A stretch of DNA of 64,000 nt, from positions 1 to 64,000 of the forward strand of contig JAQMWT010000420.1 of NCBI GenBank assembly GCA_029834535.1, in the 5' to 3' direction. Under the pieces are notes generated by a model. The model did no database searches, was not told the DNA's origin, and saw only the letters and a list, made by a program, of their open reading frames with translations. The translations under genes were made by a program, and so were the position numbers. How positions within the stretch are numbered: position 1 is the stretch's first letter; each line of letters begins with the position of its first letter. Shown here piece after piece: positions 25,064 through 60,935 of this stretch. The DNA is from Chrysophaeum taylorii. Lineage: Eukaryota > Sar > Pelagophyceae > Pelagomonadales > Pelagomonadaceae.

Positions 25064-25396
25064 TGTGGTGGAAACTCAGCTCACCCGCCCCTCTTCGCCT
25101 AACCGTCGGTCACAACGTGACCGCTCAACTGTCCTGAACCACGGGTGGTTCCACCACACGTCCAACCAAGCGCTCACACTCCGCTCACGCCATGCTGTCG
25201 AACATTTAATTGAGGGTAATTTCAAGGAAACAACAAGAAAGCAATACAAATGCCCGGTACATTGGGTCCAGTGGAAGCGCAGGTGAAGGTGTCACGATGA
25301 CACCCCCCCATAAATGCAAGGTCAATACCAGGGCAACAATCAGGGTAAGTCAGGTGGCAGGCAGGCAAGTGGGGGAAAATGGGCATCACTGCCACA
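25064..25396 (-). repeat. Gypsy 2 3' LTR
   Basis: 333 bp. In element sense it begins TGTGGCAGTGATGCCC just after the purine-rich AGTAGGGGGCTTA (25,397-25,409), the polypurine tract, and ends CCACCACA. It is about 99.4 percent identical to the 5' LTR. Confidence 0.92.
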
Positions 25397-37639: not shown

Positions 37640-39380
37640 GAAGAGAACGGAGCGTGGTAAAGTCGGCTGCAAGAGGCTTTGTGAAGCCATCAGCTACGTT
37701 TAACTTGCCAGGGACATGGTGACCACGAATTTTCTGTGGTGCGATATTCGCGAATTTTGAACCATCGAGTGGAAAGGGCTTTGCTACGAGAAGAACCGTC
37801 AGGATTGTAGGAAGTGTGCACAGCTGCAGCATCATCAGACAAAAGGGGTAGGCTTATGATGAAGCGCATATCCTCGGCAATAGGATTGTCATCAGCGTCA
37901 AAATCGGAAGGAGGGTCAGTTTGCGTATTCATATAGAATGTCGGGTTAACAACAAACGAGAGCTCAAGAAGTAAGTACGGAGCCAGACTGCTTCGTCAGC
38001 GCAGATGCTGAGAGCGATAAGCTCAGCTTCGTGGGTAGAACACGAAACTATGGGTTGTAGTTTGCTTTTCCAGGCGATGAGGCAGTTGAACAGGTAGAAA
38101 ACAAAGCCAGTAGTGGACTTTCTGTCTTCCTGTTCCAGTGAAGGAGCATTGTCGGCATCCACCATAGCAACTAGAGGGTCGAACTTGCCAGCAGCGATGT
38201 CTTTGTCCCGGTAGTCGATTATTGTTGACAGGTCAACTCTATTAGATGAAATAACGCGTAGATGATTTTCGATAGCATTCCCTTTGGGGTGAAACCAGAG
38301 ACGAAGAGCTCGATTGGCAGGTTTGCTGAGGTACCTTAGGAGGTGACAGAGCATTTGGACATGTACATAGGTGGGAGAGTGCATACCTCGGGAACAGCGC
38401 CCGAGAGCCTGGGGGAAATCGGGGCGACAAGCAACTTGCATGAAGACCAATTTGCCGAGTAGTGTAGCGAAGTGATCGTGGATGTAAATTTCCACGTCGG
38501 TAGAAGGGGAGCCTTCTTTATAAGTAAAAGTGGATGACATAGGATACCTTAGTGGAGTGAGTTTTTTTAGTATAGGGTGATCGTTAAATAATGCTTCTAG
38601 TTTGGCTTCGACATCTAACGATATGGATCCATCCGACGTTCGGCAGACACGCATTCCCAGAAGAGTATGGACTGGCTCGAATTGTTCCACAGAGAAGCGC
38701 TCATGTAACGCTTCTTGTAACTCTGTGCGGAGAGTGTCATCATTTGACACTATAACAATGTCGTCCACTGATAAACTGCAAATGACAAAGCGAGTGTGGG
38801 ATGTGCGAACATATAAGCAAGTATCCGCATGGAGTCGCTTGTATCCAAGACTCCGAAAGAAGCCGTCGATCTCTTTGTTCCAGAGAGAAGGAGATTTTCT
38901 GAGTCCATAGAGGGATTTTAGCAACTAGGGTAAGCGGCGGCCACGGTATTTATCGTCGTGAGGATCAAGTAGTTTGATGCCATCCGGGAGTTGGACGTAG
39001 ACGTGTGCGTCGATGTCGGACTGAACGAACGCGCTGGGCACGTCACTATGGTAGACCGCTAGTTTTTTTTTTTTGTACGCCGCAATTGCTAAGATGACAC
39101 GTATGGCGGTCATAGTTGCCATAGGGCTGAACGTCCCAAAGAAATCAGCGCCAAGTGAGGCTATAAATCCACGCAAGACTAATCTGGCCTTGTGCTTGAT
39201 GTAATCGCCAGACGCGTTCGTCTTGATCTTGAGGACGAGCCGGCTGTCAATTGGACGAGTATAGGCATCAGGTAGAGATAGCTTAAAGCAGCCGAAGCGC
39301 ACTATATCATGTAGTTCCTTTGCGATGGCCTTGACATAGGCTTGTCTGTCTTCAGGGGAAAGGCCTTGAAGACACTTGAG
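37640..39380 (-). pseudogene. Copia B reverse transcriptase-RNase H
   Basis: RT fingers and palm at 39,302-38,925 (KIKTNASGDYIKHKARLVLR, YHSDVPSAFVQSD); the rest is a 331-codon frame (38,924-37,929) with LLKSLYGLRKSPSLWNKEI-type sequence, catalytic SVDDIVIVSNDD, VDADNAPSLEQEDRKSTTGF and STHEAELIALSICADEAVW (RNase H). The far C-terminus with NVADGFTKPLA lies at about 37,690. Confidence 0.88.
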
Positions 39381-40242
39381 CTTGTACTCGTCGATACGTC
39401 GGCCTCTTGGACTTGTATTCGTCCGGACCTAAGGTGGCTGGAGAGCCATAGTTTAACGACGTTTCGGTCGACGCAGTGTAGTGGACTTCAGGATACGTGT
39501 GAGTGGCACAAGTGGAAGGGGCAGAGTGGCCAGGTTCCAAAGCAACAACCAGGGGTTCCTCATGGAGTACCTGGGTGATGTACTCGGTCGTGCATAGGCG
39601 GCATTCCTCCAGGTCAGACAGTTGGGCGGATGTAGCGCCAAGCTCAGATGGCGAGTGATCGATGAGACTGGTGGGTGCCAGGTAACAGTAAGCGTATTGC
39701 AATGGAGAGACACCAAACGCTGAAGCATGTTCCACGAACATAGCGACAAGTGAAGGCGGGAGGTGGTCACGAGGAGTGGCATCGGTGAGGAGGTGTGTAG
39801 CTACTGGGATGCAGGATGCGCATTTGGTTTGCGAGAAAGCACCATCGAGTAAGGGTGTAGCGAGATAGAAGATCGGTACGCAATGGAAGGAGGTGTTTGG
39901 CCAGCAGAGCCTGTTCCCCCTCTGGGCAGAGAGCGTCCAGTGGATGCCACCAGAGGTGTTTAGGGAGGAGAGGGTGGGTGAGTTAAAATCGAGATAGCGA
40001 TGTTGAAGGTCCCAGCGGAAATCAGCGAGTTTGCAGCCAGCGGCTTTATAAGCACCAACCGTAGAAGCTTGGAGCCGAGCATTGACATAAGTCATGAAGG
40101 AGGCTTTACGCTGGTTGGGGCGCTTAGCCCCCGGGACAAGTTGAAGGTGGTCTTGAGAGAACAAGTCCTTGTAAGAAGGGAGAATTGGCGGTGGCGAAAT
40201 GGTATTGTCGTCAGGAGAAGTAGTAGAGAACAGTAATTTCAA
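39352..40242 (-). CDS. Copia B integrase-RT connector
   Basis: A 296-codon frame with SYKDLFSQDHLQLVPGAKRP and APTSLIDHSPSELGATSAQL, matching 2,850-3,660 in Copia A. Near the end is STETSLNYGSPATLGPDEYK (about 39,400-39,460). The N-terminus is cut by the Copia C boundary at 40,244. Confidence 0.65.
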   Translation of the reverse strand: MKLLFSTTSPDDNTISPPPILPSYKDLFSQDHLQLVPGAKRPNQRKASFMTYVNARLQASTVGAYKAAGCKLADFRWDLQHRYLDFNSPTLSSLNTSGGIHWTLSAQRGNRLCWPNTSFHCVPIFYLATPLLDGAFSQTKCASCIPVATHLLTDATPRDHLPPSLVAMFVEHASAFGVSPLQYAYCYLAPTSLIDHSPSELGATSAQLSDLEECRLCTTEYITQVLHEEPLVVALEPGHSAPSTCATHTYPEVHYTASTETSLNYGSPATLGPDEYKSKRPTYRRVQAQVSSRPFP

Positions 40243-40243
40243 C

Positions 40244-40440
40244 TGTGTTACCCTTCAGCAGAGCGTGAGAACAGTGGTAGTCTGTCCTCGAATCTGTCTC
40301 CTAAAACGAGGACAGCCGGTGTGAATAACACAGCGTTTTCTTAAATCAAAAGGTGCTAAAGTTAAGGGAACTAACCCTAGAATAGGGGGTACTAACCCTA
40401 ATTCAGATTTTCTATCTCTACGCCCTCACAGATTGAACTC
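40244..40440 (-). repeat. Copia C 3' LTR-like region
   Basis: After the RNase H stop the minus strand reads TAGAGATAGAAAATCTGAAT and TTAGTACCCCCT, then AAACGCTGTGTTATTCACAC and ends GGGTAACACA at 40,244. The 5' side (about 48,290 downward) has the same order of landmarks (TAGAGTTAGTACCCCCC, AATCGCTGTGTCGAACAC). Confidence 0.55.
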
Positions 40441-40462
40441 GGTGAGCGAAATCTGGATCAAA

Positions 40463-42475
40463 CTAAGCAGGAAGCGTCTTACCATCGACAAGAACATAGA
40501 GAGTGTTCTGGACAGAGTCGTACGGTGGAAGAGTAGCAGAAAGAGTAACTTGATGAGATGGCGGTGAAGAAGAGGTTGAGTGAACACCGTAGGCGTTTTT
40601 GAACTTGTGGAATAAATTGCGTGGAAGGAGCTTCGAAAAATGATCAGCGACCTGGTAGTGAGTAGGACACCAGAGAGGACGAATGACCGAGTTGGCTTGG
40701 TAGTCACGAATGCGAAATTCTCGTAAATTGATATGACGAGAAGGAGCACTGACTTTAGGGTGATTAGCGACATGTAGTGCGCTAGCGTTATCAATAAGCA
40801 GGGGAATAGCGTGAGCTTGATCACACGAAAACAAATAAGGGTGGGAGGAGAATAGCTGGTGAAACCAGTGACATTCATCGGCGGCTGCGCTGGCGGCGAT
40901 GAGTTCAGCTTCCATGGTGCTTTTGGCAGTAAGAGTTTGGCGTTTGCTAGACCAGAATACGAGATTGCCAAAGACGAAGATACATGCACCAGAATTGGAT
41001 CGCAAGCGAGGGTCAGAACGGTCAGCGAAACTTGCATCCGTAAAACAAATAATGGGTGAACGAAGGTGATGCAGTTCAGAATAGCGGCTGATCAGATGCT
41101 GAATAGAGGGCGTAATAGGGGGGCTGTCGGATGAATGGTCAAGTGAATCATTCGGAGTGCCCTTTAAGTAGCGAAGTAAAACATATAAGTGCAGAAGGTG
41201 GGTCTGATCAAGGTTGTGCATACCCTTGCAGCATTTGTTGCGCAAAGTGGTGATATCAGGCCGACATGTGACAGACAAGTAAATGCGAGTGCCATAGTAG
41301 CGAGGAAAATTTTGGCGTAATACGTCTAAGATAGGAGCCAAGTCCGGGAGAAGCTTAGCAGGAGCTTTTTGAGTGAGGATGTCCGAATAGGGGACGTCCA
41401 TATTATGTAGGTTGAGCTTATGCTCGGCAAGCATCTTGGTGATCTTCGCTGCTACATTCATAGTGAGATGACCAGCGGAGACATTGTAGTGGACATCGAT
41501 ACCAAGGAAGGATCTGATGTTGTCATGCCACGTACCTTTGCCATATCCCTTCTCCAGAGCAGTGCGAAGAGATGTAATTTTGGCAGTGTTGGTACCAGTG
41601 ATCAATAGGTCATCGACTGAAACGGATAGTAGAACCCATTTGTTGATAGATCGATCCCAATTGATATAGAGGCAAGTGTCGACTTGTGAGCGTTCGAACT
41701 CATGTTGTCGAAGAAACGAGTCGAGCTTGATGTTCCACAACAAAGCTGACTGTTTGAGGCCATAGAGAGCCTTGACGAGTCGGAGAGCGAGCTTCGACTC
41801 TGGGTGGTTCTTCTGTATCTGCTGGATAAGATTTTGCGAGACACGTATTCCTCGAGGTAAGTCAATCCATACCGGGCGATCGAGTGCCGATTGGATGAAT
41901 GCCTGCGGAATGTCCGCGTGCGCGACCGGGAGTTTGTGCTTCGCGGCGATGGCGAGCAATAACCGGTTGGTGGCGAGCATTGCGGTTGGTGAGGATGTGG
42001 CATAAAAGTCAATGCCTACACGTGCCAAGAAACCTCGGGCAACTAGACGAGCTTTATAGCGGTCTGGGGTGCCATCAGCCAAATATTTGATCTTCAGCAC
42101 GAGTTTCGTCGAGATAGACGAACGGTCTGGCAGCAAAGGCTCAAGCTTAGAGACACCGTTGGAGCACAATCCTTCAATTTCTTTGCGAATCGAAGCGATA
42201 TGCTTTAACTTATCTTCTTCGTTGAGTCCTTTGAGTTCGACGATCTTCTCAGGCACATAGACAATATCTTCCGCAGTCACGAGTTGTAACACGACGTGGT
42301 CGATGTGCTGCAAGTCATAGCCCATGACTTTCTGGAGAAAATCTTGGTTTGGATCACTTTGACTTAGGAAGAGGTGTCCGAGTTCGCCAGAATCATGCGC
42401 GAAGGCATGCCGGTGACGAGAAGCTAAGTGGTAGTGCTGATGCGCTGAGATGTCCCACAAAAGGGAGGAGCTCAT
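40463..42475 (-). CDS. Copia C reverse transcriptase-RNase H, intact frame
   Basis: A 670-codon open frame. RT: KIKYLADGTPDRYKARLVAR, AHADIPQAFIQSALDRPVWI (catalytic Asp), LVKALYGLKQSALLWNIKLD and catalytic SVSVDDLLITGTN. RNase H: CFTDASFADRSDPRLRSNSG, ESTMEAELIAASAAADECHW-like segment (AKSTMEAELIAASAA), DNASALHVANHPKVS and HYQVADHFSKLLPRNLF. All catalytic residues are visible. It is clearly a different Copia lineage from Copia A/B. Confidence 0.93.
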   Translation of the reverse strand: MSSSLLWDISAHQHYHLASRHRHAFAHDSGELGHLFLSQSDPNQDFLQKVMGYDLQHIDHVVLQLVTAEDIVYVPEKIVELKGLNEEDKLKHIASIRKEIEGLCSNGVSKLEPLLPDRSSISTKLVLKIKYLADGTPDRYKARLVARGFLARVGIDFYATSSPTAMLATNRLLLAIAAKHKLPVAHADIPQAFIQSALDRPVWIDLPRGIRVSQNLIQQIQKNHPESKLALRLVKALYGLKQSALLWNIKLDSFLRQHEFERSQVDTCLYINWDRSINKWVLLSVSVDDLLITGTNTAKITSLRTALEKGYGKGTWHDNIRSFLGIDVHYNVSAGHLTMNVAAKITKMLAEHKLNLHNMDVPYSDILTQKAPAKLLPDLAPILDVLRQNFPRYYGTRIYLSVTCRPDITTLRNKCCKGMHNLDQTHLLHLYVLLRYLKGTPNDSLDHSSDSPPITPSIQHLISRYSELHHLRSPIICFTDASFADRSDPRLRSNSGACIFVFGNLVFWSSKRQTLTAKSTMEAELIAASAAADECHWFHQLFSSHPYLFSCDQAHAIPLLIDNASALHVANHPKVSAPSRHINLREFRIRDYQANSVIRPLWCPTHYQVADHFSKLLPRNLFHKFKNAYGVHSTSSSPPSHQVTLSATLPPYDSVQNTLYVLVDGKTLPA

Positions 42476-42484
42476 ACAACAGAG

Positions 42485-43400
42485 TTATTGGTTCCATTGA
42501 CGTGCATAGTACTCTGCCGGTGACTGTTCGTCATCGCACACATAGTTCTCGAGAACAGAATTGTCGTTGTCCAGGTGGTCGACCAATACAGATGAGTGGT
42601 GCGGCTTCCTTGGGAAGTCGACACACAAGAGTTCTGCGTCGGTTTCTCTCTGCAGTTCCAGTGCAGTGCCGCCCATGATACCATAGTCTTGTGTGGTATT
42701 TGCTAGGTGACATCCTTTCGGGACATCATTCGGCGGCTTACCATCCCTTCTAATGTTGAGATCAGATGCGATGCTGACAGCATGGCCCTGGTGCAGAGCG
42801 CTGACACGGACGAGGAACATCAATGTGCTGGACATGTTGGCTGTGGCGCGAGCCGTGGATTGCTCCTGCTGGTATTTCCAGTTGCGACCATACTCTGAAG
42901 CGATAATGCGTCTGGTGAAGAGTTTTCCATCGTCAACACGTTTCACGATATAGAGTTGATCCTTAGGGATGCTAAATCCACGTTCGTCCTTGAGATCTGC
43001 CGTGAGCTTATCGCACTGGTTGCGATGCACGAGAACAGGGGTAAAACCTGAATCGTCGAGAACAACCACTAGGCGATCCTTTCGTTTGGGCATCGGAATG
43101 CTACCATCCGGCGGAGATGGCCGGTTGAGGAACGAAAAATCCTGTTCAGGTGTCTTGTCGCTGACGGGACTTGGATCAGCAGCGGAGGTTGGATCCGGTT
43201 CTTCGTGCTCGTCGTCATCGTCGGGTTTGTCATTCTGGTCGTCATAATGAGTCTCGCCCTCATTTTGCGATTCCTGTCTAGCTTTCGGCGCTTGCTGTTC
43301 GCTTATAGCTGGGAGCGGGTCCTCTTGCCGTGCCTCTGTTGGGATCTGCGTGAGTGCGTTGATCTGTTCGATCTCCTTGTTGCGGTTGACTGGCATGTCT
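42485..43400 (-). CDS. Copia C integrase C-terminal connector
   Basis: A 303-codon frame, acidic in the first half (DDQNDKPDDDDEHEEPDPTS) and then PMPKRKDRLVVVLDDSGFTP. No catalytic motif. By position it links integrase to RT. A 3' part repeats RDGKPPNDVPKGCHLANTTQ. Unassigned. Confidence 0.55.
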
Positions 43401-44891
43401 GCATCAACGTGGAAGTCGTTCGAGGTGACGATTTTTCCATATCGCCCCTGATGTACAAGCAGGATAGAGTATGAACATCACGGATAAATCGGTCCGTGCC
43501 GGGGAGGTTTGGGACGTGATTGTTGGTGTTAAGATAGGAGGCGGAGACGCTGGAGGGTTCCTGCTTGTGACTTCGAGGATAGACAAAGGTGACAGGTTCG
43601 CCAAAGTGAAGGAGCTTCAAGAGCGGTGCCATAGGTGACATGATGCGCCGGGGGACGGTGCAGGACATGTTTGTGCGCGAGGGCAGTCCATGAGAGCGCT
43701 GATTGTCGGCTTGGATCTTATGCAGCCGAGCAAACGGGTGATAATACTCGGCGGCAATGGGCTTTCCTTCGATGCGGACACTGCGCAGGTAGAGGAGGCG
43801 AAGTACAGTGCCTTGGGTGTTATCCTTAATGATGTTTTCGGCGAAGTTCCGCTGGTGTAGGTGGCGACCAATGATTTGAATTGGATACCGACCTGCACCT
43901 TGAGCGGGTGGAATGCTTCGGAGCGGAACGTGGAAAACGCATCGGACGAGATGATTTTCACATTTACATCGAATTCGACCTTAATCACATTGGCCACGTA
44001 GAGGATGCCAGCCAGAACCTCCTACGCGTCTAGTTTCCTCACGAAGTATACCCATTTGCGTGCTGAGATAATACACATGAAATGCATGATGTAACGAAAG
44101 CCACCATAGCATTTGGTAATGCTCGGGTATGATACATCCATATGGAGATGTTGGCCAGGAGCATAGGCTAGTTCATCCTGTGACCATGAAGTGTTCTTGT
44201 GACTAAAGCTGAAATGCGATTGACAGCGCTTGCATTCGCTGCAGTCTTGCAGATACCGATCATCACGTGGGCGGAGATTCGTTACATTGGCGGCAATCGT
44301 GCGGCGAAGAACCTCTGGTTGCTGGTAATGTATGCGGTGCCAGCGAGTGACCAAAAGCACTCTTTTGGCGTGCTGAATGGTACCGGGCTTGTGCAAGGGG
44401 GGCAGAGCGGCAGTCGAAGCGCCGGGGGGACTGGGTCGCTTGTCAACTCGGACTTTAGCAACGGTTACCTCGGCAAGAAGCGTCTCGAGGTTTTTCGATT
44501 TGCTTGGTTTGCGGATCGCATCGTAGTGAGCATCTGCTACGGCATTGAAGAGGGAGGTGAGGTTGAGATCCTCCTCTGCTAAGAGACGGCTGGAGATTCT
44601 CAGGAAGAATTCAGCAACCTGGTTGATGTCTCCGGGGCTGGGGGTGCCATTGCGTATTGTTGCCCATTCGATGTGAAAGTTCACGTGGTGGTGCGATTCG
44701 TGGAGTGCGAGGACAGCGCTGTACTTTGCCTGCAGCATGTGGTGCGGGACGGCGCTGGCCAGTGCCTTAAACGCGAAGTACGGCGGGTGCTGTTGGAACA
44801 GACGGAGCAGTTCCGGGTCCGAGTGGTGTCCAAACTTTGCGATTTCGTTGAGGATCGCATAGCGGCTGTGGTCTGGAGAGATCAGCAGCAC
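43400..44891 (-). pseudogene. Copia C integrase
   Basis: The N-terminal zinc domain and core start lie in a 289-codon frame (44,891-44,022): CSECKRCQSHFSFSH, then HLHMDVSYPSITKCYGGFRY, with the first catalytic Asp in MDVSYP. Following frames (43,997-43,303) include VNVKIISSDAFSTFRSEAF, consistent with the second Asp region. Upstream residues in the same frame (PDHSRYAILNEIAKFGHHSD) look like the pre-integrase region. Confidence 0.75.
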
Positions 44892-45630
44892 GGCGTTGGA
44901 GTAGCTCGTGTTGGTTGGGTACGAGCCAGTGACCGAGTAGGACTTGGTGCTTTCTGAAGCGTGTCTCCGATGTGGCCGACATAGTCCGCGTAAGTGGGAC
45001 GTGCTTTGGACATTTTGAGTCCCTTGGGGTCATCGAGCGTAATTCGCCCTCGTGAGTCGATCGCGGCAAAGCCAGGATGCGAGCGATTCATGTAGTGGAC
45101 CCGAGTGGACGGGCGCGAGCAGCTGTGAGCGGCGGCCAAGGAGGTGGTGTAGGCGACGACCATAAAGGCGGTGCCCTTCGGAACATCCAGGGAAAAGGCG
45201 TGCGTTGGGGAGAAGACTGCGGGTTGGTGGGAACAGTCCAATATCTGAGGGGGGCTGGAGTGTAGGGTGAGGGAAGCGCGGGGGAAATAGCCACAGGCGA
45301 CGGCAGTAGCGACGGTGCCGGTGATGGCTCCATCCAAATGGTAAGCACATTGGGACTCCGAGGCATGAAAACAGCGGAGGGTGTTCCAAGCGGCGAGAGT
45401 TGGATGTTGCGACAAGTGATTGTGCAGCAATGTGAAAACCAGGAGATGGGAGATGTACGTCATGGTAGCGTAGGGGGTGCCGTCGGCATCTAGACCGAGA
45501 TCCGTGAAGGGCTTGGTGAAGCGTGCAAGCATTTGACAGATTCGGGCATTTTCGGGAATCGAGAGTTTCGAGGCGTTGGCGGGCGTGTAGGAAAAAGTGG
45601 CCTTGTGCTGGTAGTAGGTCAAGGTGGAGC
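44882..45630 (-). CDS. Copia C unassigned domain after the DNMT
   Basis: Within a 389-codon frame (46,051-44,882) whose last ~230 codons appear to be real coding: CQMLARFTKPFTDLGLDADG, DGAITGTVATAVACGYFPRA, SPTHAFSLDVPKGTAFMVVA and SRGRITLDDPKGL. The last piece recurs loosely in Copia E (RGRILIGDLTGL) and Copia A (LLDPRNGKLRYP). Because such a segment follows the DNMT in several elements, a DNMT accessory or target-recognition role is possible, but this is inference. Confidence 0.45.
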
Positions 45631-46551
45631 GGGGCACGGTGCCACGAAGGGTGGGTTGGCGATCCAGCGATCGTCGGGGATAGTGTTGCTGGGGTCCAGA
45701 AGTGGAACCATGCTCGGAGGAGATGTTAACCAAGGAGAAGCGTTTTTCTCGAGGTTGTACTCGGTGAGCGGGTGTCGGGCATAGACAGCGAGATATCGGG
45801 TCTTGCTGATGACGTCGCCAAAAGCGGAGGCGTTGTAGACACCGGAGTGTCGGAAGTAGCCTAAGCGCTGATAGCATTTGGCGAGTTGGGTGTACTCGTG
45901 ATGTGTTCGGGGCTTGGAAGGAACGTTCTCGACAATGGCGTAGGTCGGGAGCGTGCAGCGAACAAAGCGGATTTGTTCTGTGACGAAAAGGTCGGCGGTC
46001 ACCGGAGGGGCGTAGCCGTCGTATTCTTTCATTACACTCAAATGTTGACATGGCAGTGTGAAAACTGCTAGGTCGAAATGAGGTAGTCGACTTTTGCCGG
46101 TTTGCAGAGCGGCATTGAGCTTTCTTAGATCCGCATAATGCTGAGCGTGCGGGAAGCGTTGTTGCGCGCGTGCGCGCATAATAGGGTGAATTTCAAATGT
46201 GACCACGACAGTAATACGGTTGTCGAAGCGTTTGCGAAAAGAGGTAAGGCCTTCTTGGTGAAGTCCACCTGCAATAATAGCTGTTTTTAGCGGAGGGGGT
46301 TGTGCTTGCACAGTGAGGTCCGCTGAGCCAGTGAATGCATATTGGACGACAGTACGCGGAAGGCTAATGAGTTCCGATAGGAATATGGAATGATGCTGTA
46401 GCTTAGCAAAATCCAACATGTGGGATTGCGAGCGTGTCTTTGCGACATGCTGTGTGATGTGCGCAAGTTCATCCTTGAGTGACATTCGTGTTCCGGTGTG
46501 AAAGCTAAGCACAGCGCGGAATGTTTGCTTGGGATGGGATGGCAGGGACAA
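45619..46551 (-). CDS. Copia C C5-cytosine methyltransferase domain, open frame
   Basis: A 310-codon open frame. Motifs in order: KTAIIAGGLHQEGLTSF (residues 89-105, motif I, a divergent SAM-binding loop); VVVTFEIHPIMRARAQQRFP (115-134, motif II with the acidic residue that contacts SAM, followed by the A-x-x-x-x-F-P run); FDLAVFTLPCQHLS (159-172, motif IV with catalytic Cys168 in PCQ); TYAIVENVPSK (203-213, motif VI ENV with the catalytic Glu); GVYNASAFGDVISKTRYLAV (237-256, motif VIII). Motifs IX-X are not identified. It sits between protease (ends 46,559) and the unassigned domain. Established for the family: Cys of PCQ attacks C6 of cytosine and the ENV Glu protonates N3. Whether this copy is active is unknown. 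Confidence 0.8.
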   Translation of the reverse strand: MSLPSHPKQTFRAVLSFHTGTRMSLKDELAHITQHVAKTRSQSHMLDFAKLQHHSIFLSELISLPRTVVQYAFTGSADLTVQAQPPPLKTAIIAGGLHQEGLTSFRKRFDNRITVVVTFEIHPIMRARAQQRFPHAQHYADLRKLNAALQTGKSRLPHFDLAVFTLPCQHLSVMKEYDGYAPPVTADLFVTEQIRFVRCTLPTYAIVENVPSKPRTHHEYTQLAKCYQRLGYFRHSGVYNASAFGDVISKTRYLAVYARHPLTEYNLEKNASPWLTSPPSMVPLLDPSNTIPDDRWIANPPFVAPCPAPP

Positions 46552-46558
46552 CAGACCA

Positions 46559-47170
46559 TTAGTTTGGCGATTGGCGAGAACTACTGCGGTTTTTGCCTAG
46601 AAGCGTCTTATAATCGTGGGGATCTGCGGTTGACGTGTTCATAAGCTCGTATATGTATGGTTCGTGTGGCAGTGGCGGGTCGGTCGCTTGGACGTTCAGA
46701 GCTTTGAGCTGAGATGTCGCGATAACCTGTAGACCTTTACGGAATTGTGGGACGACCAGAAATACAATACATAGGGCGTAAACTGTGGATTCTTTTCTGT
46801 CCTTTGAGGAGAGACCTGCGGCCTGCAAGTACAACGGTTTGACACCGATGAAATGGCTGGTCAAGGTGCCTCGTCCCATACGTATGGTGTGTTCGGGAAT
46901 CCGGCGTGTGGACTCCGGAACAAAATGTTGAATTGTGCGAGTGAAGCAAAAGGATGCGCCACCGTCAATTAATGAAGTTTCAGTGCCGGGTCCGTTGCAT
47001 CCGTGCAGCGAGTTAGTATTCTTTGAGGTCTTTCCTGGAGTGTACGTGGCACAAAGAAAATCTGCGACTCTGGAAGATATTGTTGGTGAGGTCGGGAAAT
47101 TCGTCATTGTTAGGCTTGGTGCCTGATTGAGTAAGATGTGGTTGGCGGCACAGGCGTCGTCGGCAACCAT
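46559..47170 (-). CDS. Copia C protease
   Basis: A 203-codon frame with TETSLIDGGASFCFTRTIQ (residues 63-81); IDGGAS stands in for the usual hydrophobic-D-[ST]-G-A of retroviral-type aspartic proteases, with Gly in the Ser/Thr place. Downstream KPLYLQAAGLSSKDRKESTV may be the flap side. It would process the polyprotein. The unusual second residue is noted but not proof of inactivity. Confidence 0.65.
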   Translation of the reverse strand: MVADDACAANHILLNQAPSLTMTNFPTSPTISSRVADFLCATYTPGKTSKNTNSLHGCNGPGTETSLIDGGASFCFTRTIQHFVPESTRRIPEHTIRMGRGTLTSHFIGVKPLYLQAAGLSSKDRKESTVYALCIVFLVVPQFRKGLQVIATSQLKALNVQATDPPLPHEPYIYELMNTSTADPHDYKTLLGKNRSSSRQSPN

Positions 47171-47888
47171 CCGCGAAAAAGCAGACTCTGGTGGAGAGCA
47201 CGCATGTAGTCACTGTGACGTTGTGCGTAGTCTTCGGCGGAATCATCTTCATCGTTGATTTCGGGGATGGTGCCGTCGTAGAGGCCTAGATGTCCGTGAT
47301 CATCATAGAAACCGAGATGGCCTTGGTCATCTTTTTCGTCAGTTTCGCCCTCGTCAGGTGGATTCGAACAAGATGGAGTGTCCTCGTGAATGTGGGGTGT
47401 GCCAGGTTGTGGAGTAACCTTGGCTATGCCAGGGTCCGGAGGGAAGGCAGTGGGGGCCGAGACTTTGCCGTGGGGTGTTTGACATCCGGTGGGGTGGACG
47501 GCAGAAGGTGGGTGTTGTCCATGTTCGAGAACGTGTTGAACAGCTTGAGGGGGACCATCGAGATGATCGGGTCTTGGGTCGCAACTTCGTGAGAAGTTGG
47601 CTTGAGGGGGGTCTCCTCGTGAACGGCTGGTGGGGAAGCCTGTTCAAGTTGCTCGTCCTGGTCGAGTTGCTCGTCTTGATCGAGTTGCTCGTTCCGAGCT
47701 TCGATTCTTGCGGCCAAATAAGCATTTTCCGCAGCAAGTTTTGCGGCGAGCGCATCGTTTTTGGCACAGAACTCAGCTTTTTTATCTTTGATCTCTTGCA
47801 AGAGCCAGAGAGTCTGTTCTTGGGATGGGCTGAATTGCATCAAATAATCCAGACTCCGATTTGTGATGTTGGGGTCTTGAGTCGCCAT
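47171..47888 (-). CDS. Copia C gag N-terminal region
   Basis: A 154-codon frame starting MATQDPNITNRSLDYLMQFS (47,888). It contains an Ala/Leu/Glu coiled coil (EFCAKNDALAAKLAAENAYL) and a QLDQDE tandem (three units near residues 73-88). It is short for a gag, and the middle between 47,424 and 47,170 is in another frame. The leader (47,889-48,290) is shared with Copia E. Confidence 0.6.
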
Positions 47889-48257
47889 GTTGTTGGAGTC
47901 GCGTTTTGCGCGTTGTTGGTTGCTTTGCTTTCACACTTTTTCACACCTTTTCACCAGTAGCAAGCGATTAGACTTGACTACGGTCTTATAAACTTCAGGA
48001 ACTTAAGGAGATTGCTCTTGCCTGGAAATCCGGGTTCTTTGTCAGAGACGTCGATCGAGCTCGATGTCTTTCGGAGGGACCTTTCTCTACCAGTACCTGA
48101 CTGGGTCCAAACCTGTAGACACGTAAAAATCACTGTGCCCCTGGTAGAGAATGATGGCAGTGGTAGTGCTGCCCTGACGCCCTGTCCCTAACGACACAAA
48201 GAGCAGCACGGTGTTCGACACAGCGATTTTATTGGTGATTGGGTGTGAGAGTGATAG
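47889..48257 (-). other. Copia C 5' leader / LTR
   Basis: Non-coding. The minus strand matches 57,735-58,110 (plus) in Copia E at about 85-90 percent by eye (for example TTTGTGTCGTTAG, TTTGGACCCAGTC, AATCTCCTTAAGTTCCTGAA, CAACCAACAACGCGCA). It ends at the gag ATG, 47,888. Confidence 0.65.
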
Positions 48258-48440
48258 GGGGGGGGGGTACTAACTCTAAATCAAATATTGCATCTCTATA
48301 TCATTGGGTGAAAATGGCTGACTAGCATCTTTTGAGGGGGGGGGGGAGTACCAACTATAAATCAAATTTTGTATCTCTATATCATTGGGTGAAAATGGCG
48401 GACTAGCATCTTTTGAGTTACGGAAACGTCGTGCGTTACA
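48258..48440. repeat. 80-bp tandem duplication with a poly-G run and a Copia D-like gag scrap
   Basis: Two copies (48,258-48,336 and 48,337-48,418), each with a G-run, then a TACTAACTCTAAATC-like segment, ATCTCTATATCATTGGGTGA and TAGCATCTTTTGAG. The flank 48,410-48,440 (minus: TAACGCACGACG then ACTCAAAAGATGC) matches Copia D gag at 56,205-56,245, so a Copia D-type gag scrap lies beside the Copia C end. Confidence 0.5.
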
Positions 48441-54660: not shown

Positions 54661-55330
54661 CGTTGGTTTGCGAGAGTTGTTATGTGTGGTTGATAGGAAT
54701 GCTGGTCGAGTTCGCAGTCAGGCAAGAGGAGAGGTATTTTTCCTAACGTACTCGTTTTGTTACCGAAGATTGAGAAGGAGGGTACGGAGCCAAGGGCGTG
54801 CTGAGAGCTTCGTAACCAAATAAGTGCAATAGTGCAGTAAGTCACGATTTTCATTATACCTCTTCAGAGGGAATGCCAACGAGCGTAATTCAAGGTTCCT
54901 ATCACGCGCCAGGGCGTAAGGTAGACAGGGTAGTGCTGGTAGGTCGTGATCCACAAAGTGAATAGGCACATTCACGTCTTTGTCAATCAGACTAGTTAAG
55001 TGGGACATACCTGGTTTTTCACTGTCGTTAAGGGTGACGGTCAACTGAGCCTTGTTCCACTCAGGTGCACTAAGAATAAATAAGTGACGACCTTGCCCTG
55101 GCTTGAGAAACAAAGCACAATCCGATTTCACGTGGCCGATGCTAGGGTGATCAGGCAGTGGAGACTCAATGTTTTTCGTTAAAATAATGTGCGAGACTTG
55201 TTGTTGTCCTGTGGCAGTTTGAACAACAGGGGCACATTTTGGATCGATTGGCGCAATGTGATTAGGTAGAGCGAAATCAAATGTGGTAATCAGTGAGATG
55301 GAGGCACCGCTGTCCAGATATAGAAATTGG
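54660..55330 (-). pseudogene. Copia D protease
   Basis: Starts with YLDSGASISLI (about 55,286-55,318), the D-S-G-A active site of a retroviral-type aspartic protease. Downstream frames (55,131-54,760) carry FLKPGQGRHLFILSAPEWNK and SEKPGMSHLTSLIDKDVNVP. Protease is directly followed by the DNMT-like domain, as in Copia C. Confidence 0.75.
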
Positions 55331-57536
55331 AAATGAAGGGGGAGATTGTGATCTCTCCTATACTTGGTAAGGAACGCATTCTCGCGAGGGACACTGGTAG
55401 AGCTGGTAGAGGGAATGCCTGCAGCAAAAAATTAGGTTGGCCAAGAAGCTTGGAAGTGACGATCACTTGGGAGAATTTAATGGGGGCGACGGGTGCAGTT
55501 GGTTCACCGTTGTCAGCTCTTAAACAATTATTAATGTCGAATGGCGAGAGATTCTCTTGCGTGGTAGTCTGTGATGTGGCAGACTGAGATGTCGATTGAG
55601 CAGAACTCTTGAGACACATGGCTGCAGTAACATGAGAAGAGAGCTCATTCCGCCGCTCCGGTGATAATTGCGCAATAGCATCCGCGGTTAGATTGACAGA
55701 TTCAGTAGGAGGAATGGCGGGTGGATCACTATTGCCATTTGCGTTCGGTGGAGTTGTAGAGGAATTGGGTGCAGACACAGATGATTGGTCTGCCCCATAG
55801 TTTAACGACGTTGAGGTCGAAAGCATATGTATATCAACATCCCTTGCGATATCTTCGGCATAGGAAAGTTGATCATTAAGGCGGAGAATGTCGGAGATGT
55901 CATCTGAAGTTGTAGTAGCAATGATATCGGCCGATTGTAGTAAGCTCTCAAACAGCTTGTTGATATTTTCTTGCAATTGAGACGTAGTCGCACTTTGGGC
56001 AGTATGCTTAGATAGCTCGCGAAATTGATATTTAAGTGCGCGCATCGTGTGCTTTGTGCGATCCAAGAACTTCATGTCAGATCGAGCGGGTCGGTCAGAC
56101 GTGCGCGCATAAATAGGTCGGTCGTTAGATTGACCAGGACTGCGAGCTCTGGTGACATCGGAGTCTCGAGGGCCGTAGTATATCATTAGGTGAGAAAGGC
56201 TGACGAGCGTCTTTTGAGTTGCGGAGGCGTCGTGCGTTAAAAGCGGGTTTTGACTGTTGTCCCTGTGCTGGAGTGGTAAGCGATGCGAAAACATGCGCTG
56301 TGTGTTCCAGTTCAGAGTGCGTGTTGTCCAACAGCTGAGTCGAGAGTAATTTGGGTTTCTGGTGGGTGGATAACCCTTCAACATAAGGTATCCAGGAGAC
56401 TGGGGGTTCGAGACGCCTTCTCTCGCTTGCGTTGGAAACGGAATTATAGAGATCCAAAGCAAACTCAAGAATAGCTGCTGAATCAGACGGATGACATTGC
56501 CTGTCGGCTTCAGGACGTGCTCTGACAGAAGATCTTGTCTCATAAATAATGCACCAGTCAACCCAGCCTCTATCATAGCGGTTGTTGCTGGTATTATCAG
56601 AGAAATGCTTATATAGTTCTTCATATTTTTTGCGACTAAGTGTAGATTCGTCGAACTGTAGATTTGTCTCATCCTGGTTAAGCTGAAAAGAGAGATGTAT
56701 GAAGGACTGCACACATTCAACGAAGACATGTACATACCAGTTAGGATTGTACACAACAGCGTTAAATTGCTGTTTCTAATACGAAACATCGTTACTGGAA
56801 ACAGTTTCATAACAGTTAAAGGCAATGAGCATTTTGGCTCGGGTATTGTTAGGGTGGTAGTGCCGATTGTATACCTCCGTAATGGCTGGCGATGCCGCAA
56901 GAGCGGGTTTCCCCACACTTTCGTGGTTAAAGAAGGTATACGAAAAGGTGGCATATGTAAATTGGTAAGTTTGCCAATCGGCATGTGAAAAGGCAAAGGT
57001 GGACACTGGAGCGTTGAATCTCTCATCAAAGGCGAGCTCACGGGGGTAGTTACCGTTGAGCTCCCGTTCGGCGTCTTTAAGGGGTTATTTATTTCGGGGC
57101 GAAGAGCCCGGACCTCATTACCGTAGCAGACAGTGGCCAACTGTCCAACTTCGGGGTCTGGTAAGTTTGGGAGCGCCTCAGATGTGAAGTGCCAGCTCTG
57201 ATATTCAGGAAGCAAGTCTTCAGCATCTTGGAGGTTGAGTTCTAACATTATGGCACGTTGCCAGTCCAGGAAAACCTGGTCTAAGATCCCATTGCGCTTG
57301 ACTTCGTAGTCAGGGCAGGACCTCGTGTAAGCCTCATACGAATCGAATTCGAAGAGGGCTCCTGCGTGGTGGAAGCGCAGTAATTGCCTAATCTGTCTCA
57401 CTTGGAGCGAGACCTTCCGGCTTTGAAGCTGAAACCGATTTCCATCGTTGAGAAACTCAACAACAGGGCCCTCTAACTTGAGAGTATCCGCGCCAGTGAC
57501 TGCCTTGGGTGCGGCTCTTGCTGCTCGTTCCGCCAT
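55290..57536 (-). CDS. Copia D gag
   Basis: A 748-codon open frame starting MAERAARAAPKAVTGADTLK. The N-terminal part (residues 24-130) includes EFLNDGNRFQLQSRKVSLQV and FEFDSYEAYTRSCPDYEVKR, shared with the fragment at 35,311. The C-terminal part includes RTKHTMRALKYQFRELSKHT (possible coiled coil), then HMLSTSTSLNYGADQSSVSA (about 55,780-55,835), carrying the SLNY motif, and PERRNELSSHVTAAMCLKSS. The middle part (56,300-57,000) looks low in complexity of function and may not be read in this frame. Confidence 0.6.
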   Translation of the reverse strand: MAERAARAAPKAVTGADTLKLEGPVVEFLNDGNRFQLQSRKVSLQVRQIRQLLRFHHAGALFEFDSYEAYTRSCPDYEVKRNGILDQVFLDWQRAIMLELNLQDAEDLLPEYQSWHFTSEALPNLPDPEVGQLATVCYGNEVRALRPEINNPLKTPNGSSTVTTPVSSPLMRDSTLQCPPLPFHMPIGKLTNLHMPPFRIPSLTTKVWGNPLLRHRQPLRRYTIGTTTLTIPEPKCSLPLTVMKLFPVTMFRIRNSNLTLLCTILTGMYMSSLNVCSPSYISLFSLTRMRQIYSSTNLHLVAKNMKNYISISLIIPATTAMIEAGLTGALFMRQDLLSEHVLKPTGNVIRLIQQLFLSLLWISIIPFPTQAREGVSNPQSPGYLMLKGYPPTRNPNYSRLSCWTTRTLNWNTQRMFSHRLPLQHRDNSQNPLLTHDASATQKTLVSLSHLMIYYGPRDSDVTRARSPGQSNDRPIYARTSDRPARSDMKFLDRTKHTMRALKYQFRELSKHTAQSATTSQLQENINKLFESLLQSADIIATTTSDDISDILRLNDQLSYAEDIARDVDIHMLSTSTSLNYGADQSSVSAPNSSTTPPNANGNSDPPAIPPTESVNLTADAIAQLSPERRNELSSHVTAAMCLKSSAQSTSQSATSQTTTQENLSPFDINNCLRADNGEPTAPVAPIKFSQVIVTSKLLGQPNFLLQAFPLPALPVSLARMRSLPSIGEITISPFISNFYIWTAVPPSH

Positions 57537-57714: not shown

Positions 57715-60700
57715 GTTGTAGAGATAGAAAATTCCATTTAGAGTTAGGACCCCCCCCCCTTATCTCACACTCACACCTAAACACCAACAAATCGCTGTGT
57801 CGATTACCGTGCAGCTCTTTGTGTCGTTAGAGGACAGGACGAAAGGCAGCACTACCACTGCCACCATTCTGTACCAAGGGCACAGTGATTTTTAGTGTTC
57901 TCTAGGTTTGGACCCAGTCCGGTACTGGTAGAGAAACGTCATCCGAAAGACACCGATCTCGATCGACGTCTCGGACAAAGACCCAGGATTTCCAGGTAAG
58001 AGCAATCTCCTTAAGTTCCTGAAAGTTCTAAGACCGTAGTCAAGTCTCATCGCTTGCTACTGGTGAAAAGTGCGAAAAGTGTGAAAGGCAACCAACAACG
58101 CGCAGAACGGTCATCCGCAATGCCCCCGCTATGTCGCACCCACAGGGACAAGACACGCTGTCAACGGTCCCACGATCACCATACTCGCAGGAACTCACCG
58201 CAACTTTAGGTATCACTCAGATTCACCAGGTACTCCCGCCTTGTTCGATATCTCTCGATCAGTCGCTCCCGATCACTTCAAAGCTGGTTCCACCTCGCTG
58301 TCTTCTCTCTCCGAAGACAGGCACGCACTGCCGCTCACCGGCGCTCACTGCTGCACCCACCATCCACCTTCCCGGCCGGATGCACTGGATGACACTGCCC
58401 AGCAGGTTGCATGGACCCAATTGGGATCACCATGTTACGATTCGATGGATGTCACCGCACGTGCATCAGTCGCAGCACATGCTCATCGGCTCTTCAACTC
58501 TCAATCAGAGGACGCACTCCTTTCTACTGCCAACCCTTATGTCTCACCGCGACGAAGTTTTTGGCAAGCCTCCACCATGGCCGCAGTCACAGACTCAGAT
58601 TTCGAGAATTATGAACGCGCCGATCAGCCGCAAACTGTGCACGCTCATATTGCGACCACCCCGGTCCTTTATGTCCGCTTGCGTCGCTCTCTTCTGGACG
58701 CCACACGCCTACGCTGCCTCGTCGATGTTGCGCTCTCAGGAGACATTCTCCACGCGCACTGCACAGACACGCTCCATCTGAGCCGCTTCTGTCAGCATTT
58801 TCACATAATAGGAATGTACGACGAATGTCCCATGCCAGCTGCCGGCTCCACCGAAGACATGCACAATCGCCACACACGATGCCTCCCTCGACAGCGGTTT
58901 ATCGCTCGGCACGTCACTCCTCATTCGAGGACGCAAGTCATAAGCCCGCACCATCACATGCTATGCACGCCTATGGGCAACCCTGGTCACTATGGCACTC
59001 GCCGCTCTGGTCCCCGCACCTCCGTCATTGAGGATGCAACCAGCATGACTGACCCTTCCATCGCCCTTGGCTCTACTCCACTCACGCACTATGACCCCAG
59101 CGAACTCGCACTCTCCTTCGGCGATCCCCCTCTACGATTTCCCGCACTGGACCCCACGCATCCCAGGCCGGATATTCTACCCCACGGGATCTCAGCTCAC
59201 GCACCCATCTGCACTACCTTGCGGACAGGTCGGCGGCGGGCCACTTCTCTTTTGGCACCGATTTCGGACCACTCGCACTACCCGATCTTGCTCTTTGAGC
59301 ATGACCCGCTTCTCGATGCTCCCCGCGTCACCGCCTATGACACCAAGACACTTGCCTTTTCCACTGACGCTCCGCGCCGCCATATGTCTCACGACCTTCC
59401 GATCACCAACATAACTCGCCCGCGCCCACCTCTGGTCGCGCACGCCTTACGAGGGCGTATTTTAATTGGTGACCTCACAGGTCTTTCGACGCACTTCCCG
59501 ACATTCGACTTTGAACTTACGAGTCACTTTATGGAAATCCCCAAAGCAAAGACGTCTGACGCTACACAACCATGTCTCTGGAACTCCCCAGCCACAGAAA
59601 CTGCCAGCCAAACAAGCACTCAGCTCCCCACAGCTGCTAAACAGCTACCTCTCGTCTCGCACATAGCAACGACGACTGTCTCGCAGTCTCTCTTTGACGA
59701 AAAGACGAAAGATAAGACCTCAACTGCTAGGTACACCAGTCAGCCCGTCGATGAAGCAGACGAGACAATGCAAACCAGCTGCACAGCACGGTTCCGGACT
59801 AAGCCGACAATGCCCAGGTCCGACGTTCAAGCGCTCGACCAAGCACACGTTCAGTCACTCGACCCTGCCCTGCTACAGGCTCCTGTCTCACTCATAGCTG
59901 ATGCACCCCATCCGATTGATCAGTCCTTCAGACATGTCCCGCTCGCAGAAGCACAACTGCAGGAAGCACAGGCACATCACGAAGACACAGGTAAGCGCAC
60001 CGCGACTACGCGCACTAGCGTATTGCGCCTATCCGATCACGATGAACTGAAGCTACAGCAACGCTCGCTCCCTTCGCAACTGGAAGACAAAGGCCGCCTT
60101 CCAGCCACCCAGACACCTGACCCGCCCCTGCCGCTGCAACCCGCGACAGCATGGACGATCTCGCCCCCCTGCATGACTACAGATCAGGCACTAGCCAATG
60201 TCAGCACTCGCCAGAGTAATGCGCACCCGCTGGTATCTCATCAGCACGCCTACTTCAGCCAGGCAGGTCACTGCACCACCTCGGTCTCCTCTGATACCAG
60301 GTCGATGCATCGCTCCTTCGCAACCACTTCACGTCATCTATTGGACGACTATGATTTTGAGCACGAACTCATCGCACCGATTGAGTCATATCCAAGCAGG
60401 AACCCTATTTCGAATCCAACTCAATCTATCCCACATGAACCTTGGCCACCAGACGCTACCCATATGCTCATGGTTTCTCCATTGGTCTCCTCCATAGCTC
60501 TTGACTGCAGCAGAGACAAGATGCAACCATCCCATGCGACTATACTCGCATTCTCGTTTGGGACACATGCATTTCCTTCATGTCATATGTTTACGCTCAT
60601 GGTACCGCCATATACGGCAACAAAGATCGACGAGGACTGCATTCCACCCTCCTCTTCGAACGTTACCCACGACATGCTGCTCCCCGCATTGTTAGCCAGC

Positions 60701-60935
60701 TCTATCACGCCAGATTCAGCTCCCATCGCCTTGTATGACGTCATACGCCATATTCCGATTACAGCCCAGACACCGCACAGGCTCCTGCGCACTCGCGACG
60801 GCACGCTCGCCGTCCCTCTCGGTTATAGACTACCCACATAGCGCCATCGTCTTGGTACGCTCACGGTGAACTGAGATGCACGATCGCTTGTTGCATAGTA
60901 CGATACCCGAACATCCATTGTTTCAGGTTCAACAC
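57715..60935 (+). mobile_element. Copia E: pol-less element with a Copia C-like leader
   Basis: The left part (57,722-58,110) matches the Copia C leader in plus orientation, beginning TAGAGATAGAAAATTCC and a C-run, and continuing to CAACCAACAACGCGCA just before the first ATGs. It is followed by one long open frame and no recognisable integrase or RT. This fits a non-autonomous relative of Copia C, or a 5' part whose pol is lost. A SINE inserts at 60,936. Confidence 0.55.
58241..60841 (+). CDS. Copia E long open frame, 866 codons, function unknown
   Basis: The longest open frame in the window, Thr/Pro/His/Ser-rich. A segment TRLRCLVDVALSGDILHAHC (about 58,705-58,765) loosely recalls a retropepsin start but lacks the D-[ST]-G. 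PLVAHALRGRILIGDLTGL (about 59,430-59,485) resembles the post-DNMT domain of Copia C. The C-terminal ~130 residues (SHATILAFSFGTHAFPSCHM ... HRLLRTRDGTLAVPLGYRL) may be a second copy of that domain. A 216-codon frame (58,131-58,781), starting closer to the leader, overlaps it. Its being open for 2.6 kb suggests constraint or recent origin. Confidence 0.5.
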   Translation: MFDISRSVAPDHFKAGSTSLSSLSEDRHALPLTGAHCCTHHPPSRPDALDDTAQQVAWTQLGSPCYDSMDVTARASVAAHAHRLFNSQSEDALLSTANPYVSPRRSFWQASTMAAVTDSDFENYERADQPQTVHAHIATTPVLYVRLRRSLLDATRLRCLVDVALSGDILHAHCTDTLHLSRFCQHFHIIGMYDECPMPAAGSTEDMHNRHTRCLPRQRFIARHVTPHSRTQVISPHHHMLCTPMGNPGHYGTRRSGPRTSVIEDATSMTDPSIALGSTPLTHYDPSELALSFGDPPLRFPALDPTHPRPDILPHGISAHAPICTTLRTGRRRATSLLAPISDHSHYPILLFEHDPLLDAPRVTAYDTKTLAFSTDAPRRHMSHDLPITNITRPRPPLVAHALRGRILIGDLTGLSTHFPTFDFELTSHFMEIPKAKTSDATQPCLWNSPATETASQTSTQLPTAAKQLPLVSHIATTTVSQSLFDEKTKDKTSTARYTSQPVDEADETMQTSCTARFRTKPTMPRSDVQALDQAHVQSLDPALLQAPVSLIADAPHPIDQSFRHVPLAEAQLQEAQAHHEDTGKRTATTRTSVLRLSDHDELKLQQRSLPSQLEDKGRLPATQTPDPPLPLQPATAWTISPPCMTTDQALANVSTRQSNAHPLVSHQHAYFSQAGHCTTSVSSDTRSMHRSFATTSRHLLDDYDFEHELIAPIESYPSRNPISNPTQSIPHEPWPPDATHMLMVSPLVSSIALDCSRDKMQPSHATILAFSFGTHAFPSCHMFTLMVPPYTATKIDEDCIPPSSSNVTHDMLLPALLASSITPDSAPIALYDVIRHIPITAQTPHRLLRTRDGTLAVPLGYRLPT

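Follow-up and report, generated by a model that had tools for sequence, protein, structure and literature searches.

DNA methylation is usually a weapon of the host against its transposons. DNA methyltransferases (DNMTs) carried by retrotransposons themselves were described in 2018, in long interspersed nuclear elements (LINEs) and DIRS elements of Symbiodinium and in Gypsy elements of Klebsormidium; that report presents the Copia elements of Symbiodinium as having no DNMT domain (PMC5890265). The DIRS-borne DNMT3s methylated CG sites de novo in yeast, and the LINE and Gypsy enzymes gave no methylation there, a result that the authors call inconclusive (PMC5890265). A 2025 paper names DNMT3 in "LTR Copia and DIRS families" of streptophytes and dinoflagellates and cites the 2018 report (PMC12344493), which itself says Gypsy (PMC5890265). 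Here we describe a Copia long terminal repeat (LTR) retrotransposon of the pelagophyte Chrysophaeum taylorii that almost certainly carries a genuine C5-cytosine methyltransferase (MT) domain, as its sequence motifs, profile matches and copy distribution suggest. The element was found in a stretch of 64,000 nucleotides, called the window below (positions 1 to 64,000 of contig JAQMWT010000420.1, assembly GCA_029834535.1). No Copia DNMT of this kind was found in the open-licence PubMed Central literature. Precedents from dinoflagellates and charophytes were invoked when the window was first annotated; they exist in Symbiodinium and Klebsormidium, but they are LINE, DIRS and Gypsy elements and not Copia (PMC5890265).

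Three described systems invite comparison, each as presented in the 2018 report. KnitGypsy-Dnmt3 of Klebsormidium nitens is, like the element described here, an LTR retrotransposon with a C5-DNMT inside Pol, key residues kept, and purifying selection on the enzyme (Ka/Ks < 0.2); however, it is a Gypsy element with an enzyme of the DNMT3 class and repeats in a DIRS-like arrangement (PMC5890265), whereas the Chrysophaeum element is a Copia with ordinary LTRs, and its MT has PCQ in motif IV and no close relative in the searches described below. SymbioDIRS-Dnmt3 of Symbiodinium also has its DNMT in Pol and a cDNA that precedes integration, and among the retrotransposon enzymes of that report it is the one with de novo CG methylation in yeast; unlike the present element, it belongs to the tyrosine-recombinase DIRS elements and its enzyme to the DNMT3 class (PMC5890265). 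SymbioLINE-Dnmt of Symbiodinium shares with the present element an orphan DNMT class and many intronless copies, but it is a LINE with the DNMT in ORF1 and no DNA methylation in yeast, and it has fewer CGs than other Symbiodinium retrotransposons (PMC5890265), whereas the CpG observed/expected ratio here is approximately 1.

A methyltransferase domain inside Copia Pol

Sequence comparison shows that, in the Pol polyprotein of the element, the protease is followed by a divergent and apparently complete C5-cytosine MT, and this in turn by the integrase. This layout is clearest in a 9.6-kb copy with both LTRs on contig C96 (L032, L029 and L033), the one copy resolved from end to end; the window copy has just its 3' LTR. 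The Pol of the C96 copy is one open frame of 1939 codons that comprises the protease, the MT (approximately residues 291-830), the zinc-binding and core parts of the integrase, and an RVT_2 reverse transcriptase (RT); RNase H, named by its position, lies in a separate frame after Pol. Its two LTRs measure 208 and 196 bases; their alignment spans 196 bases, of which 11 differ, plus a gap of 12 bases. The LTR ends are TAGAGA...TCTCTA, and the target duplication is the 5-base CTCAC. A single Pol frame of 1855 codons with protease, MT, integrase and RT is also found in the L031 copy, and in the L030 copy a stop inside the MT splits the Pol frame.

Membership in the Ty1/copia group is indicated by an integrase that precedes an RVT_2-type RT, with RNase H placed by position, and by the paired LTRs and target-site duplication of the C96 copy. 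The element RT groups with Copia RTs in a phylogenetic tree and is not of the Gypsy type (RVT_2 E 2.8e-39); the integrase core match in L029 (PF00665, rve) is weak (E 0.006). The order of protease, integrase and RT, the RVT_2 domain, the short LTRs and the 5-base target duplication are all as in Ty1/copia elements, from which the element differs in the additional MT of approximately 540 residues between protease and integrase.

Several lines of evidence identify this additional domain. The 310-codon frame of the window copy matches PF00145 over residues 113-267 (E 2.1e-9, 37.7 bits, curated cut-off 22), so the lack of a profile match, which the initial annotation had named as grounds for rejecting its claim, was not observed. 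In addition, the phage family phrog_363, DNA methyltransferase, matches L029 (E 1e-8), and TIGR00675 (dcm) gives E 3.1e-8, with a score of 33.6 bits that is below its cut-off of 100.65. Motifs I, IV (PCQ), VI (ENV) and VIII are in order and conserved. A profile of five family copies, the window copy not among them, was compared by hhalign with a reference of eight 5-methylcytosine (m5C) MTases, seven from phages and one DNMT2-like from the same genome; the whole family profile aligns to these enzymes across motifs II-VIII. Motifs I-VIII alone score 53.6, a value reached by none of 200 column shuffles (maximum 22.0). Together with the PF00145 match, these shuffles rule out a chance match.

The C-terminal motifs require more caution. 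The tail of the MT, aligned alone, falls on motifs IX-X, with RYATLNEIAKF on R-LTP-EC-RL and FKALANAVPHHM on YKQ-GNSV, and its score of 22.4 was reached by none of 300 column shuffles (maximum 21.6). As hhalign's own probability is low (4%), register and conservation moderately support, but do not prove, the presence of motifs IX-X after the target recognition domain (TRD) stretch. That stretch, approximately 300 residues between motifs VIII and IX, has no Pfam match. The idea that it is a hidden 2-oxoglutarate dioxygenase, raised by an HxD at Pol residues 611-613, was rejected, as the His is present in 26 of 35 copies and there is no Pfam match.

The window locus, as its reading frames indicate, is a decayed copy of this Copia-superfamily LTR retrotransposon. 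Its homology to the full element ends at position 47363, with the 5' LTR and most of gag gone, and relative to the open Pol frame of C96 it switches frame at Pol residues 193-215, 505-513 and 740-756. Because of this decay by frameshifts, the 310-codon frame holds motifs I-VIII and the rest of the MT lies in shifted frames. The initial annotation had taken the 310-codon frame for the C5-MT; its PF00145 domain and ordered motifs hold up, but the frame is only the N-terminal half, with motifs IX-X in another frame (approximately 44864-44736). Within the 310-codon frame, the AGG of motif I is at residue 94 and the Cys of PCQ at residue 168, where the initial annotation had put it; ENV follows from residue 208 and the motif VIII region SKTRY from residue 249, in the order which that annotation described. 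The frame was also correctly described as having the same orientation as the element genes: its neighbors on either side, a protease-like frame and an RT frame, are likewise on the minus strand.

Copies across the genome

The surveyed genome comprises 70.8 Mb in 697 contigs. At least 132 matches to the window frame were found (128 of 507 candidates scored), some of which are split pieces or lie on allelic contigs. Matches occur at near-identical coordinates in the contig pairs C25/C521 and C10/C297, which are probably two haplotypes or duplicated contigs; copy counts are therefore slightly inflated. In the RT survey, 119 of 143 RT matches were entered, 24 partial-length ones being excluded, and a family was defined by RTs at least 60% identical. 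An MT match lies upstream on the same strand of 76 of the 114 RTs of the family of the window element (family A), with a median spacing of 3.59 kb. With at least 132 matches and a conserved spacing to the RT, the possibility that the MT is a host gene caught by insertion was discarded.

At least 57 PF00145 matches were found genome-wide (123 of 474 candidates scored), and 54 of these overlap the element MT matches. The other three are on contigs C634, C621 and C216. The C634 match (L001) is a DNMT2-like gene (PDB 1g55, E 3.9e-39). The C621 match (L002) is a DNMT5-like gene whose counterpart, PDB 7r76 (E 2.6e-143), has a molecule named "DNA repair protein Rad8" in its entry and is presumably Cryptococcus Dnmt5; the RING match of the C621 gene is weak (E 0.23). 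The C216 match is considered another element copy because it sits 4.1 kb from a family RT. No DNMT1- or DNMT3-like gene is among the PF00145 matches listed; because this search reads exon by exon and covers the candidates scored, a host enzyme may have been missed. As a separate observation, the DNMT2-like frame has beside it, on the other strand, a gene of the chlorophyll a/b-binding superfamily (PF00504; L001, 688-2256 (-) and 1498-2580 (+)). The best PDB matches of this gene include chlorophyll a/c antennae, and on this one gene the host would probably be an alga with antennae of that type.

Conservation and selection in family A

To examine conservation, 38 copies were aligned as DNA to the C96 copy, comprising 26 from L003-L031, from which three loci repeating the same places had been dropped, and 12 from L035-L046, mostly chosen for divergence. 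The Gly-Gly of motif I, the catalytic Cys and the Gln that follows it are each present in 38 of 38 copies. Conservation extends to motif IX (Arg 32/32, Glu 33/33) and motif X (Asn 31/34). The median pairwise ratio of nonsynonymous to synonymous substitution (dN/dS) is 0.16 in motifs I-VIII, 0.20 in the recognition stretch and 0.20 in motifs IX-X, alongside 0.15 in the protease, 0.20 in the linker, 0.32 in the spacer after motifs IX-X and 0.18 in the zinc-binding part of the integrase. For the whole MT, the ratio is 0.18 in frame, compared to 1.55 and 1.90 when the sequence is read one or two bases off.

Codon changes in the MT that are common to two or more copies have a nonsynonymous to synonymous ratio of 0.42 and include one stop, whereas changes private to one copy have a ratio of 1.88 and include 17 stops. 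Shared changes biased toward silent ones and private changes without this bias are as expected if selection acts during replication and ends after insertion. These substitution patterns demonstrate that the MT domain is kept by purifying selection as an apparently working part of the element, and because this selection matches that on the protease and integrase, the MT presumably does something for the element. The earlier description of the window frame as apparently catalytic would consequently apply to the family, with its invariant Cys and its purifying selection, and not to the window copy itself, which is decayed by frameshifts and has an altered motif X (LASAVP).

A sister family and the origin of the methyltransferase

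A second Copia family (family B, L059 and L060-L076) was founded on a locus of contig C560 (L059, G000:C560:48000-55800), whose RT is the best-scoring one outside family A and is 43% identical over the RT domain. In L059, too, protease and integrase are separated by a stretch homologous to the family A MT (tblastn 23% identity, E 2.7e-21; blastp of the two MTs, E 1e-13). The family B MT has no PF00145 match of its own in Pfam, yet when a single B sequence joins the profile of family A, the score against the m5C MTases rises to 65.6, from the 53.6 of A motifs I-VIII alone. The active site of the B enzyme is rewritten: where family A has PCQ and ENV, it reads ECT and EEM. The family B sample comprised 16 locus rows, two of which are at the same place and were counted once; at the places readable in the nucleotide alignment, the Glu before the Cys is found in 10 of 10, the Cys in 8 of 10 and EEM in 5 of 5. 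Divergent or decayed B copies differ (EEA in L070, EEP in L071 and KEF in L073), and neither PCQ nor ENV was read in any family B copy examined.

Excluding the duplicate, 47 pairs of family B copies were available. Forty-one have dS above 0.35, and 34 of these have dN/dS of 0.10-0.30; the remaining seven range from 0.32 to 0.64, and five of the seven involve the decayed L074. The six closer pairs have dN/dS of 0.40-0.74. The family B MT thus appears to be mostly under purifying selection as well.

In an MT tree of 14 sequences (four from family A, one from family B), the two families form a clade (100/99) apart from DNMT2-like, DNMT5-like and phage enzymes, although branches are long and the placement of a donor is weak. 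The DNMT5-like L002 and DNMT2-like L001 of the same genome are, like the element MT, members of PF00145, but the element MT groups apart from both, and motif IV is SCVD in L002 compared to PCQ in the element. In DNMT3 enzymes, motif IV is PCN; the comparison of the element's PCQ with that class is by motif, as the tree contains no DNMT3 reference. In an RT tree, families A and B fall in one group (84/91) with metagenome and MMETSP sequences, and five other Copia RTs of the same genome fall outside it. The simplest reading, which the MT tree supports but does not prove, is that the MT was acquired once, before the two Copia families split.

Relatives of the RT were found at 39-47% identity in metagenomes and MMETSP. 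Relatives of the MT were found neither at E <=0.1 in a collection of 5.8 billion proteins that includes MMETSP, EukProt and nr entries (best 7995 candidates by shared words scored) nor at 0.01 in a single-sequence search of 816 candidates from the same collection. In IMG/VR, no MT or RT relative was detected by the few peptide patterns tried, and one RT relative searched against prokaryote genomes gave no match. One Copia RT, P0011, is binned in a Bacteroidota metagenome-assembled genome, most likely as eukaryotic contamination of the bin.

Captures of DNMTs by LINE, DIRS and Gypsy elements were already known. The Copia lineage described here seems to have had its MT since before the split of families A and B, whose RTs are only 43% identical, which suggests that the association of MTs with retrotransposons is recurrent and can be long-lasting. 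The search gave just two other MT genes in this host and more than 100 matches to the element MT, and a canonical active site can be compared with a rewritten one; together these offer a testable case for the role of retrotransposon DNMTs.

Possible functions of the methyltransferase

The best overall explanation, which we favor by somewhat better than even chances, is that the Copia-borne MT is a working Pol enzyme, most likely one that acts on the element's own freshly made cDNA. The MT would be translated within Pol, released from it by the protease of the element and, as its placement inside Pol suggests, packaged with RT and integrase; it would then put 5-methylcytosine on the new cDNA before integration, and the mark would either disguise the cDNA as host DNA or determine the chromatin in which the new insertion is packed. 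Methylation of cDNA is the leading hypothesis because the MT lies inside Pol and DIRS-borne DNMT3s methylate CG in yeast. The components of this proposal are not equally secure: activity on nucleic acid is likely, DNA rather than RNA is a reasonably probable substrate, and the element's own cDNA as the target in particular is slightly short of an even chance.

Several observations weigh against methylation of cDNA by a working Pol enzyme. Thirty-eight of the 114 family RTs are without a listed MT; when 12 of these were checked at the expected place, six had MT core residues, five had nothing and one had only protease and recognition pieces. Other Copia elements with no MT among the matches listed are plentiful, so the domain is dispensable for retrotransposition generally: 148 of 150 listed RVT_2 matches, mostly other Copia, have no listed MT match of either family within 9 kb upstream, and of the two that do, one is a family RT. 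This comparison is a contrast among the matches listed and not proof of absence. Within family A, the Glu of ENV is replaced by Asp in 3 of 38 copies, and family B has other residues where PCQ and ENV would stand. In the RT tree, family B joins a metagenome sequence, P0006 (100/99), and not family A, the rest of the group being unresolved, so under a single capture P0006-like relatives would either possess an MT or have shed it, unless the MT was transferred between elements. Single-sequence AlphaFold2 models, made with no alignment, have pLDDT of 32.7 and 35.2 and are uninformative as to the Rossmann MTase fold, a different fold having been the other ground for rejection named in the initial annotation. 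Finally, private C>T and G>A changes occurred at 88 of 11935 CpG sites compared to 217 of 34264 others, a 1.16-fold difference and no marked excess, and a CpG content lower than that of two host-gene loci is true of the whole window rather than of the MT-bearing element in particular.

For C>T alone, CpG sites changed no more often than CpC sites. Private C>T changes amount to 0.0066 at CpG, 0.0058 at CpA, 0.0074 at CpC and 0.0067 at CpT, and private G>A changes to 0.0081 at CpG, 0.0066 at ApG, 0.0053 at TpG and 0.0055 at GpG. CpG observed/expected is 1.04 both as the median of the copies and in the window, compared to 1.26 and 1.46 at the two host-gene loci (L001 and L002), and TpG and CpA are commoner in the transposon-rich window than at these loci. 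With a CpG excess that is slight at most, these data neither demonstrate a lasting CpG mark nor strictly rule one out. The absence of a marked footprint is compatible with a mark that is only transient, with efficient repair, or with RNA as the substrate.

The last of these is a competing explanation in its own right, in which the MT acts on RNA, such as the element's genomic RNA or the tRNA primer, and not on cDNA. The PCQ/ENV set of family A is of the kind also found in the host DNMT2-like gene, and DNMT2 is a class of RNA enzymes. The lack of a marked footprint among private changes also favors an RNA substrate, and RNA methylation was offered by the 2018 authors as a possible explanation for the SymbioLINE-Dnmt that gave no DNA methylation in yeast (PMC5890265). 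However, the element MTs form a clade separate from the host DNMT2 in the 14-sequence tree, with its long branches and weak placement, and we regard an RNA substrate as unlikely, albeit the strongest of the alternatives. Somewhat less probable is that the MT is a catalytically dead module of Pol that binds nucleic acid or has a structural role and keeps only its fold. Family B appears to speak for such a module, having ECT and EEM and yet dN/dS of 0.10-0.30 in 34 of 41 pairs. The Cys of motif IV and the Glu of motif VI are the residues with direct chemical roles, and they are largely what has been retained: Cys and Gln are invariant in family A, and family B keeps the aligned Cys at 8 of 10 places and the motif VI Glu at 5 of 5, which argues for a catalytic enzyme.

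It is also conceivable, but improbable, that the MT serves self-limitation or the host, by marking insertions for silencing or by feeding de novo methylation to DNMT5. Such a role would suit a genome in which the PF00145 matches beyond element copies, among those listed, are one DNMT2-like and one DNMT5-like gene; the private changes show no marked CpG excess, however, and the exon-by-exon search of 123 of 474 candidates may have missed a host enzyme. DNMT5 is maintenance-only in Cryptococcus. A broader scenario, which we consider doubtful to a similar degree, is that an MT captured once by an old Copia lineage became a constitutive Pol enzyme and diversified into a PCQ/ENV form and a selectively maintained ECT/EEM form, which may methylate differently or only bind; with the DNMT5-like gene as the only other DNA methyltransferase detected in the host, de novo 5-methylcytosine in this genome would then come from the retrotransposons. 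A chance motif match, contamination or the isolated insertion of a host gene has a negligible probability given the Pfam match, the number of copies, their conserved spacing to the RT and the purifying selection.

The window copy and its surroundings

The features of the window copy are listed in Table 1. The protease label is presumptive, based on position and on a protease-type motif, as the protease-like frame with IDGGAS has no Pfam match; the RNase H part likewise has no Pfam match in either the window copy or the C96 copy and is named from its position.

Table 1. Features of the decayed Copia copy, with positions in the 64,000-nucleotide window
Feature	Positions	Strand	Basis
Extent of homology to the complete element; the 5' part is absent	40222..47363	-	blastn, L029 2137-9286 vs window 47363-40222, 89.1%
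Protease part of Pol (presumed), start MVADDACAANH, active-site-like IDGGAS	46559..47170	-	Translation; order as in the L029 Pol frame
N-terminal half of the C5-methyltransferase (MT), motifs I-VIII, 310 codons	45619..46551	-	PF00145 E 2.1e-9
Motif IV PCQ, catalytic Cys168 of the 310-codon frame	46045..46053	-	Cys 38/38, Gln 38/38, Pro 37/38 copies
Motif VI ENV	45922..45930	-	Glu 35/38 (3 Asp), Asn 37/38 copies
Motif VIII region SKTRY	45793..45807	-	Arg458 of Pol in 36/38 copies
TRD stretch separating motif VIII from motif IX, next frame	44954..45643	-	Family dN/dS 0.20
Probable motifs IX (RYAILNEIAKF) and X (LASAVPHHM, window copy), inside the open reading frame (ORF) 44022-44891	44736..44864	-	Family profile on m5C MTases
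ORF with MT end, zinc-binding part of the integrase and beginning of its core (HMDVSYP)	44022..44891	-	Same order in L029
Part of Pol after the integrase core and before the reverse transcriptase	42485..43396	-	Contiguous in the L029 Pol frame
Reverse transcriptase (RT), Copia type RVT_2, plus RNase H by position	40463..42475	-	PF07727 E 2.8e-39
3' LTR	40224..40420	-	Alignment with both C96 LTRs (208 and 196 bases)

The copy lies among other repeats and retroelements. A fragment of another Copia RT (37929-38924 (-), PF07727 E 1.1e-16) adjoins it, and upstream of the truncated element (48252-48413) is a tandem pair of 81-base repeats that contain long runs of G and share 90% identity. Further away, a frame with an integrase and an H2C2 zinc finger (25340-26992 (-), PF17921 and PF00665) belongs to another retroelement, probably of the Gypsy type. 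Frames of 748 and 866 codons at 55290-57536 (-) and 58241-60841 (+) have no Pfam match at E 0.01, and a eukaryotic aspartyl protease frame at 18710-20185 (+) (PF00026, E 3e-31) is perhaps a host gene amid the transposons.

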